DNA of 64,000 nt from Prauserella alba (GTDB lineage: Bacteria; Actinomycetota; Actinomycetes; Mycobacteriales; Pseudonocardiaceae): positions 1,364,001 to 1,428,000 of the forward strand of contig NZ_JAMTCH010000004.1 of NCBI RefSeq assembly GCF_024171735.1, read 5' to 3'. Under the pieces are notes generated by a model. That model was not told the DNA's origin and did not search any database. It saw only the letters and a program-made list of their open reading frames with translations. Shown here piece by piece: positions 2,468-57,485 of this stretch. A program made the position numbers and the translations under genes. Within the stretch, counting starts at the first letter, position 1. Every line of letters starts with the position of its first letter.

Positions 2468-2558
2468 GCCGAGAGGCGTTGCAACGGGTCGGCCATCGCC
2501 AGGGGCCGTCCCGCCACGCTCGGCGTGAACCACCAAGGACGCCTTCCGACAAGGAAGG
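2468..2558 (+). promoter_or_regulatory. Probable S-adenosylhomocysteine (SAH) riboswitch and sequestering hairpin in the metH leader
   Basis: P1 is GCCGAG (2468-2473) with CTCGGC (2519-2524). It encloses AGGCGTTGCAACGG, close to the SAH-riboswitch core as I remember it (GAGCGYUGCRAC), an internal GGG-CGGCC/GGCCGTCCC helix and the CCACGCTCGG strand. Downstream, ACGCCT (2539-2544) can pair with AGGCGT (2474-2479) as the expected pseudoknot. CCTTCC (2542-2547) can instead pair with GGAAGG (2553-2558), the ribosome-binding site of metH. The two pairings share bases 2542-2544, so ligand-bound RNA would free the site (ON switch). The architecture is seen directly; the ligand is inferred from resemblance and from the metH context. 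Confidence 0.75.
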
Positions 2559-2564
2559 CAGGGC

Positions 2565-6293
<3,729 letters not shown>

Positions 6294-9013: not shown

Positions 9014-9164
9014 CGCATGTCCTGCCCTCAGGCCCGCGTGTCCTGCACTCGGCACCGCGTGTCCTGCACTCGAACCGCGAAGGAGGCCGTCGTGGCCCGG
9101 AGTCAAGCCGACCACTCCCTTGCGCATGTCCTGCGTTCGGCACCGCGTGTTCCGCATTCGGACA
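9014..9164. repeat. 21-bp intergenic repeat cluster A (CGTGTCCTGCACTCGG type)
   Basis: Three contiguous 21-bp units (9014, 9035, 9056) carry CGTGTCCTGCACTCGG or close variants. Two more units start at 9123 and 9144. The first group lies between divergent genes; the second group is inside the first codons of the next gene. Confidence 0.85.
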
Positions 9165-16639: not shown

Positions 16640-16735
16640 GCAACGTCCTGAGCGCAGAACACGACGTCCCGAATGCAGTACACGCGCCCCGGAAGCTGCA
16701 ACACGCGCGCCCCGGAAGCTGCAACACGGTCAGGC
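16640..16735. repeat. 21-bp intergenic repeat cluster D
   Basis: Four units in reverse orientation, the last two nearly identical (CCCCGGAAGCTGCAACACG). They follow the 41-bp direct repeat and precede the 3' end of the convergent endonuclease gene. Confidence 0.85.
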
Positions 16736-41483: not shown

Positions 41484-41640
41484 TGTCCTGCACTCAGACA
41501 CGCGTGTTCTGCGTTCGGCACCGCGTGTCCTGCACCCGTGCCCGCCCCTGCGCCGTGTTGCGGATTCCGGGGCCCGTGTTGCGGATTCCAGGGCCCGTGT
41601 TGCAGGTTCCGGGGCCCGTGTTGCGGATTCCAGGGGGAGC
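41484..41640. repeat. 21-bp intergenic repeat cluster E (both unit types)
   Basis: Three CGTGTCCTGCACTC-type units are followed by four CCGTGTTGCGGATTCCGGGG-type units, the latter nearly identical and exactly 21 bp apart. They fill the gap between the convergent IclR and TetR genes. Confidence 0.9.
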
Positions 41641-43013: not shown

Positions 43014-43082
43014 CAGCGTCCCGGAACCCGCAACACGGCCCCCGGAATCCGCAACACGGCGAACCCGAGTGCAGGACACGCG
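43014..43082. repeat. 21-bp intergenic repeat cluster F (both unit types)
   Basis: Two GGAATCCGCAACACGG-type units and one GAGTGCAGGACACGCG-type unit, all reverse oriented, between the convergent nitroreductase and lutC genes. Confidence 0.85.
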
Positions 43083-49214: not shown

Positions 49215-49732
49215 TCACACTCCAGGGAAGGCAGCGGTCAAGACCATTGCCGACCAGACTTCCCGGCGCACCTGGCCGCCAGGATAGTGGCCGCACACAG
49301 GAACACTAGCCCCTTCGCGCCGCCTCGGCCGAGTACGAACACTGCTGACTTGACACGGTGACCAGGCGTTTTCGTGGACGCTCAAGGATACTCCGGCGAT
49401 CTGGTGACACACTGTGACATGTACCTCGAATGCAGTCGCTTCGCAGCAGCACCGACCGACGGCGACGCCGCCGTCACCCTGTGAACACCTCCCGCGATCG
49501 GCCGGAGACTCGCGCAACCGGGACTCGATCCGAGCGCGGACGGACCTCGCGCGAAGGGGAGCAGGCGGGACAGAGAGGTGAGGGGGCGCCGGCCCTTGCT
49601 GGGGGTCCAAGGGCCGGCGCCGGCGCGACCCCCTGGGGGAGGGAGGGTGCGCACGTGGGGAGAGCGGCCTCGCGCCCCGCCATGACGCACACCCACGAAA
49701 CTCACCCATTCGGGTGAGCGCCCGCCCTCCCG
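49215..49732. other. Long intergenic region with a strong hairpin, no gene seen
   Basis: Upstream region of nhaA. The first ~200 bases are less GC-rich and should hold the nhaA promoter. At 49585-49621 a perfect 14-bp stem GGCGCCGGCCCTTG and its inverse flank a nine-base loop, extended outward by AGGGGG/CCCCCT (49581-49634). A smaller hairpin CTCACCC-ATTC-GGGTGAG lies at 49701-49718. Open frames here have no homology or ribosome sites. Confidence 0.6.
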
Positions 49733-49802
49733 GCGCTCGTGTTGCGGTCTCCGGGGACCGTGTTGCGGTCTCCGGGGCTCGTGTTGCGGATCCCGGGGGC
49801 GG
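49733..49802. repeat. 21-bp intergenic repeat cluster G
   Basis: Three forward units of the CGTGTTGCGGTCTCCGGGG/CGTGTTGCGGATCCCGGGG type in exact 21-bp spacing, between nhaA and a VOC gene. Confidence 0.9.
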
Positions 49803-56698: not shown

Positions 56699-56714
56699 AC
56701 CCGAGCCGACCGCC

Positions 56715-56800
56715 CGTGTTGCGGATCCCGGAGGCCGTGTTGCGTTCTCGGGGAGCCGTGTTGCGGGTTCCGGGGGCCGTGTTGCGGATTTCGGGCGAAA
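56715..56800. repeat. 21-bp intergenic repeat cluster H
   Basis: Four forward units of CCGTGTTGCGGATCCCGG, CCGTGTTGCGTTCTCGG, CCGTGTTGCGGGTTCCGG and CCGTGTTGCGGATTTCGG types, 21 bp apart, between the acyl-CoA ligase and the yqeY-like gene. Confidence 0.92.
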
Positions 56801-57374: not shown

Positions 57375-57485
57375 GCACGCGGTCACCGGAATCCGCAACA
57401 CGGCCCCCGAGAAACGCAACACGGCGCCCCGGGAACGCAACACGCGCACCGGAACCCCGTGCAGGACACGCGGGCGCCCGCGTGT
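57375..57485. repeat. 21-bp intergenic repeat cluster I
   Basis: Three reverse units ending GCAACACGG or GCAACACGC, followed by one CGTGCAGGACACGCGG-type unit, in the gap between the yqeY-like gene and the convergent pirin gene. The preceding ~160 bases show nothing recognisable. Confidence 0.85.

Follow-up and report, generated by a model that had tools for sequence, protein, structure and literature searches.

The window, by which we mean the whole stretch of 64,000 nucleotides that was analyzed, carries a gene for the B12-dependent methionine synthase MetH on the forward strand, preceded by a short leader and, further upstream, by a tRNA-Ser gene (2141–2229). Two profiles identified the protein well above their cut-offs (NF007024: 2151 bits, cut-off 1497; TIGR02082: 1744 bits, cut-off 1011). 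Among the best 80 of 588 related metH loci the closest sequences belong to Prauserella isguenensis (96%), P. halophila (94%) and P. rugosa (92%; values for best segments). A second full-length metH was not found in the genome, where the protein search gave only a 28% stretch of 268 residues. The features of the leader and the gene are the following:

2455–2460, + strand: -10-like box TAAGCT (TAnnnT motif; transcription expected to begin a few bases upstream of P1)
2465–2551, + strand: SAH riboswitch aptamer as delimited by Rfam (RF01057; match of model R2, 2466–2546)
2468–2473, + strand: P1 5' strand GCCGAG (96.8% of helix cells paired, changes on both sides in 3 of 7 pairs)
2474–2479, + strand: pseudoknot 5' strand AGGCGT (99.5% of cells paired)
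2480–2484, + strand: conserved core TGCAA (in the alignment the same as the Rfam consensus UGCAA)
2485–2488, + strand: P2 5' strand CGGG (94.0% of helix cells paired, changes on both sides in 4 of 6 pairs)
2510–2513, + strand: P2 3' strand CCCG (sequence and covariation)
2514–2518, + strand: joining strand CCACG (Rfam consensus CCAGG; C at 2517)
2519–2524, + strand: P1 3' strand CTCGGC (sequence and covariation)
2539–2544, + strand: pseudoknot 3' strand ACGCCT (sequence and covariation)
2541–2547, + strand: hairpin left arm GCCTTCC (first four bases common to the pseudoknot strand)
2553–2559, + strand: hairpin right arm GGAAGGC (GGAAGG at 2553–2558, 6 nt upstream of the ATG, probably serves as the metH ribosome site)
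2565–6293, + strand: metH, B12-dependent methionine synthase, 1242 aa, with its ATG at 2565

Upstream of P1, a TAnnnT box was found 13–18 nt ahead of the P1 motif [CT]CGAG in all 53 metH leaders examined, a range set after inspection, against a background of 0.013 per six-position range. By eye no good -35 box was seen upstream of TAAGCT. The position of the TAnnnT box ahead of P1 indicates that the transcript probably begins at the aptamer. Between the tRNA-Ser gene and the leader lies a 10-bp tandem repeat, CGTTCCCAGC, with 6.7 copies (2273–2339). Further repeats were noticed elsewhere in the window: 21-bp phased tandem repeats around GTGTTGCGGATTCCGGGGCCC are located at 41553–41636, 43020–43060, 49730–49798 and 56714–56789, and related arrays at 9014–9079, 16643–16691 and 57386–57454. 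The spaced pattern GTGTTGCGG-N12-GTGTTGCGG occurs as 82 adjacent pairs in the genome, and read backwards it gave no pair in the whole genome.

The first-pass annotation had recognized P1 GCCGAG/CTCGGC, a conserved core and the pseudoknot strand ACGCCT in the order typical of SAH riboswitches. All of these parts were found, with AGGCGTTGCAACGG at 2474–2487. The search against Rfam that it had proposed gave a covariance-model match to RF01057 at 2465–2551, which reached 37.3 bits and therefore just exceeded the gathering score of 37 (E 0.0026 for 64 kb and all families). The match ends 13 bases upstream of metH, and at gathering scores the window contains only one other Rfam match, the tRNA.

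Since the Rfam score was borderline, we built two further models. R1 comprises 31 of 37 leaders, leaving out six near-copies from the genus of the window but including the genus itself, and R2 is made up of those 22 of the 31 R1 leaders that come from outside this genus. R2 scored the window element with 53.7 bits (E 4.8e-10 by a rough calibration), the runner-up in the window having 17.7 bits. On 21 chosen loci R2 recovered all 13 that R1 had marked (44–63 bits) and none of the 8 that R1 had left unmarked, where the next best score was 17.9. On the strength of this leave-genus-out model a chance match to RF01057 was rejected, and the first-pass observation of an SAH-riboswitch-like leader is confirmed. 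Other, weak matches to RF01057 in the genome (L003–L008, 15–21 bits) were dropped as they have no metH or ahcY downstream, and so was one match of 27 bits (L124) followed by neither gene.

Compensatory changes in relatives, which the same annotation had named as a way to check the element, were found in P1, P2, the pseudoknot and the ribosome-site hairpin. In an alignment of 31 distinct leaders (A2), 96.8% of the cells are paired compared with 26–44% in slid controls, and 9 of 19 pairs show changes on both sides: 3 in P1, 4 in P2 and 2 in the pseudoknot. Within the pseudoknot, C-G is replaced by U-A in 5 of the 31 leaders and G-C by A-U in 2; the leaders with U-A are the metH leaders of the window's own genus. 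When 93 distinct leaders were considered, four types of 5' pseudoknot strand were present and the two strands were complementary in 92 leaders, for one type by means of a G-U pair.

We then assessed how widely the element is distributed. In the family Pseudonocardiaceae R1 detected it in 288 of 390 genomes and 23 of 46 genera (E ≤ 0.001, genomes used in training counted in). Across the phylum only 5 of 296 evenly drawn genomes were positive (E ≤ 1e-4), namely the genome of the window and four of the same order. This indicates that the element is common in the family and patchy outside. Among the best 80 of 588 related metH loci in named genomes, 34 carry the element (46–68 bits; runner-up 19.4 bits), ending 17–98 nt before the aligned metH start. 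Three of these 34 belong to Prauserella and 22 to Mycobacterium or genera split from it, the remaining ones to Nocardioides, other Propionibacteriales and one actinobacterium. One of the 46 negative loci (L096) starts within metH.

Many of the actinobacterial SAH elements go unseen at the Rfam cut-off. At the gathering score no SAH element was reported in 15 metH loci, 8 of which are positive with R1 (L038, L039, L040, L042, L045, L046, L048 and L112; all 8 tested, in named genomes). In a survey of 100 genomes, including that of the window and 40 from outside the family, RF01057 matched 29 genomes at E ≤ 0.001, 14 of them over the cut-off. Of the 60 genomes from the family (G000–G059) the Rfam model matched 27 at E ≤ 0.001, with 13 over the cut-off, and R1 matched 31.

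The 3' pseudoknot strand runs into a hairpin whose right arm contains the likely ribosome site. The overlap of pseudoknot strand and left arm had been predicted in the first-pass annotation and was found, although it covers four bases (2541–2544) instead of the three given there, and the hairpin has 7 bp including a closing G-C pair. A design in which pseudoknot and hairpin exclude each other, as had also been put forward, is borne out by the relatives: in each of the 53 metH leaders that were examined, the best hairpin following the pseudoknot takes up 3–6 bases of the 3' pseudoknot strand in its left arm and has the ribosome-site stretch preceding the start codon as its right arm. As the 53 leaders represent 33 distinct hairpins, we regard the either/or switch as a conserved design. 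In these 33 hairpins 217 of 228 cells pair (2000 shuffles: mean 88%, maximum 93%) and 20 cells are changed on both sides compared with a shuffle mean of 6.7, a test that overstates the significance because the hairpins were chosen by maximised pairing and the leaders are related. An extended set of 71 distinct metH leaders shows the overlap in every case, and in 70 of them the right arm contains a ribosome-site motif.

Constrained folding was used to estimate the accessibility of the ribosome site. The median probability of an unpaired site across the 53 leaders was 0.00 for the free RNA and 0.00 when only P1 and P2 were formed. It rose to 0.47 when the pseudoknot strands were occupied as well, with values above 0.5 in 25 of 53 leaders, an effect that is partly built in because the strand being blocked doubles as the hairpin arm. 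Occupying the pseudoknot 5' strand together with another six-base block as a control left the median at 0.00. For the window RNA the value increased from 0.00 to only 0.21, a modest release since three hairpin pairs and other pairings persist. Two leaders behaved differently: in L064 release by the control block (0.30) exceeded that by the pseudoknot (0.24), and in L051 the site opened to 0.38 with P1 and P2 alone.

From the observed parts, their covariation, the shared strand and the gene context we infer SAH as the ligand, the sign of the response and the translational level. Very probably, the 5' leader of metH is an SAH riboswitch that acts on translation and is ON with ligand, and translational control of metH, ON with SAH, is its most likely mode of action. 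Without SAH, the free end of the 3' pseudoknot strand and the bases next to it would pair with the ribosome site (GCCTTCC/GGAAGGC), keeping metH closed. With SAH bound, the aptamer consisting of P1, P2 and the pseudoknot would keep ACGCCT in the pseudoknot, which would cost the hairpin four of seven pairs and let the ribosome bind. MetH would be expected to go up as SAH accumulates and its hydrolysis supplies homocysteine, a response with which both the leader architecture and the constrained folding agree.

The same aptamer could in principle have an output other than ribosome access, such as transcription (pausing or Rho), RNA decay or a response of opposite sign, which we regard as unlikely. 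In the same class of elements, an alternative hairpin overlaps the pseudoknot strand in all 20 ahcY leaders and in 4 of them precedes a T-run, resembling a terminator, so that one strand seems to serve either as an anti-ribosome-site arm or as a terminator arm. In contrast, a T-run 3' of the hairpin is present in none of the 71 distinct metH leaders, for which reason a transcription terminator for metH was rejected, and the ribosome-site motif of the right arm, found in 70 of the 71, lies in the leaders listed a few nucleotides upstream of the start codon. As to the sign, metabolic need alone leaves it unfixed, but with bases common to pseudoknot and hairpin the ribosome site should open when ligand is bound.

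To characterize the regulon we collected 84 distinct elements: 37 of 41 that were listed in the survey of 100 genomes with the Rfam model or found again, 27 detected with R1 (30 given, three repeats removed) and 20 picked by hand among the matches listed; L124 and the matches of 15–21 bits are left out of this count. Downstream genes are metH in 57 cases, ahcY in 24, and once each metK, a methyltransferase gene and a MOSC-like gene. In the metK case (L026, G027) the riboswitch is located directly upstream of metK, which is followed by ahcY. The methyltransferase-domain gene (L035, G079) is accompanied by a gene for an F420-dependent LLM-class oxidoreductase. The third gene (L177, G155), which lies behind a riboswitch-like element, we take to be MOSC-like from its sequence type.

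These targets also bear on the ligand. A relative of the SAH riboswitches with a shifted preference for SAM, for both compounds or for another adenosyl compound would be marked by the joining strand CCACG, in which C2517 is invariant in all 31 leaders of A2 where the Rfam consensus CCAGG has G, and the single copy preceding metK would fit such a shift. We consider it improbable, as 81 of the 84 elements precede metH or ahcY, both genes of SAH recycling, and agreement with Rfam extends to the UGCAA core and the other bases of the joining strand. Finally, a conserved leader hairpin that hides the ribosome site and resembles RF01057 by chance would explain the borderline Rfam score but is very unlikely in view of the 53.7 bits from the model lacking the genus, the two-sided covariation in all three aptamer helices and the specificity of R1, which matches 5 of 296 genomes drawn across the phylum (E ≤ 1e-4) and 288 of 390 family genomes (E ≤ 0.001).

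While the SAH-responsive leader remains our preferred reading, the actinobacterial elements may in addition constitute a distinct subtype, an idea we put forward tentatively and consider possible though rather doubtful. Members of such a subtype would often score below the Rfam cut-off, carry CCACG, which might tune ligand preference, and use a minimal platform whose anti-ribosome-site or terminator arm is formed in part by the 3' pseudoknot strand itself. Their regulon would be that of the methyl cycle, with metH, ahcY and occasionally metK or a methyltransferase gene.

The genome of the window has a second SAH element upstream of ahcY, and just upstream of this riboswitch-ahcY unit (L002, G000:C4) we noticed a gene for a pfkB-family kinase, perhaps adenosine kinase. 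A search for adenosine deaminase gave two matches and no lead. In the same genome, a match to the N-terminal domain of metE starts about 155 bases after a cobalamin riboswitch (G000:C4:271347–272637). With metE located behind a cobalamin riboswitch and metH behind an SAH riboswitch, the two methionine synthases would answer different signals; judging from these positions, metE is probably shut by B12 and metH opened by SAH.

Two types of metH are associated with the elements. The type of the window is shared with Mycobacterium and Nocardioides at roughly 70–77% (best 80 of 588 loci); the other type (53–57%, N-terminal part) follows the metH elements in the remaining genera of the family that were retrieved. 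The pseudoknot letters follow the metH type: AGGCGT/ACGCCT is present in 37 of 38 distinct leaders of the window's type, and AGGCGC/GCGCCT in 31 of 33 leaders of the other type as well as in 19 of 20 ahcY leaders. A capture of the metH riboswitch from the ahcY copy of the genus itself is therefore not favoured by the leader sequences. Genome G009 carries a metH with 91% identity to that of the window, in front of which neither R1 nor R2 finds an element (L155). It lies after a short fragment resembling, by eye, the other metH type and before a riboswitch-ahcY unit (L155 with L014), and the locus suggests, as far as the arrangement goes, that one metH type was replaced by the other. Further upstream in G009 are genes that look like metK and a pfkB kinase, again by eye only. 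In G002 (L029) a stretch similar to the C-terminal part of MetH (30% identity) is located upstream of riboswitch-ahcY.

The element belongs to an established riboswitch family of which few descriptions exist for this gene or this bacterial group. The leader would provide a clear regulatory logic for a core gene in Pseudonocardiaceae, some mycobacteria and Nocardioides. Reportedly, Wang et al. in 2008 placed the SAH riboswitch RF01057 upstream of ahcY with ON logic. The ahcY riboswitch and the window element share the order of P1, P2 and pseudoknot, the UGCAA core and a downstream gene of SAH recycling; the window element differs in preceding metH, in its pseudoknot AGGCGT/ACGCCT, in having CCACG for CCAGG and in barely reaching the Rfam cut-off.

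Control of metH by SAH is less novel than it sounds because, according to the accessible parts of the respective papers, an SAH riboswitch on metH is a taxon-specific regulon member in Comamonadaceae (Leyn et al. 2014, PMC4239095) and the presence of SAH riboswitches is noted for Mycobacteriaceae (Sun et al. 2013, PMC3766115). The former share riboswitch family and target gene with the window element in a proteobacterial host, the latter share family and phylum. These parts describe no platform for the former and mention neither a target gene nor a platform for the latter. For Actinomycetota we found no report of SAH control of metH in the accessible portions of the open-access literature (including PMC10907184, PMC2864571 and PMC9495176), which is no proof of absence. 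The proteobacterial SAH regulon has ahcY and metF as its core, and metK is stated to be a non-target (PMC4239095). The platform described here is widely shared and its unusual targets are few, with metK, found once, departing from the published regulon. A pseudoknot coupled to the ribosome site is also described for the SAM/SAH riboswitch RF01727 (PMC7367207); there the ligand closes the ribosome site (OFF), whereas in the window element the ligand should open it.
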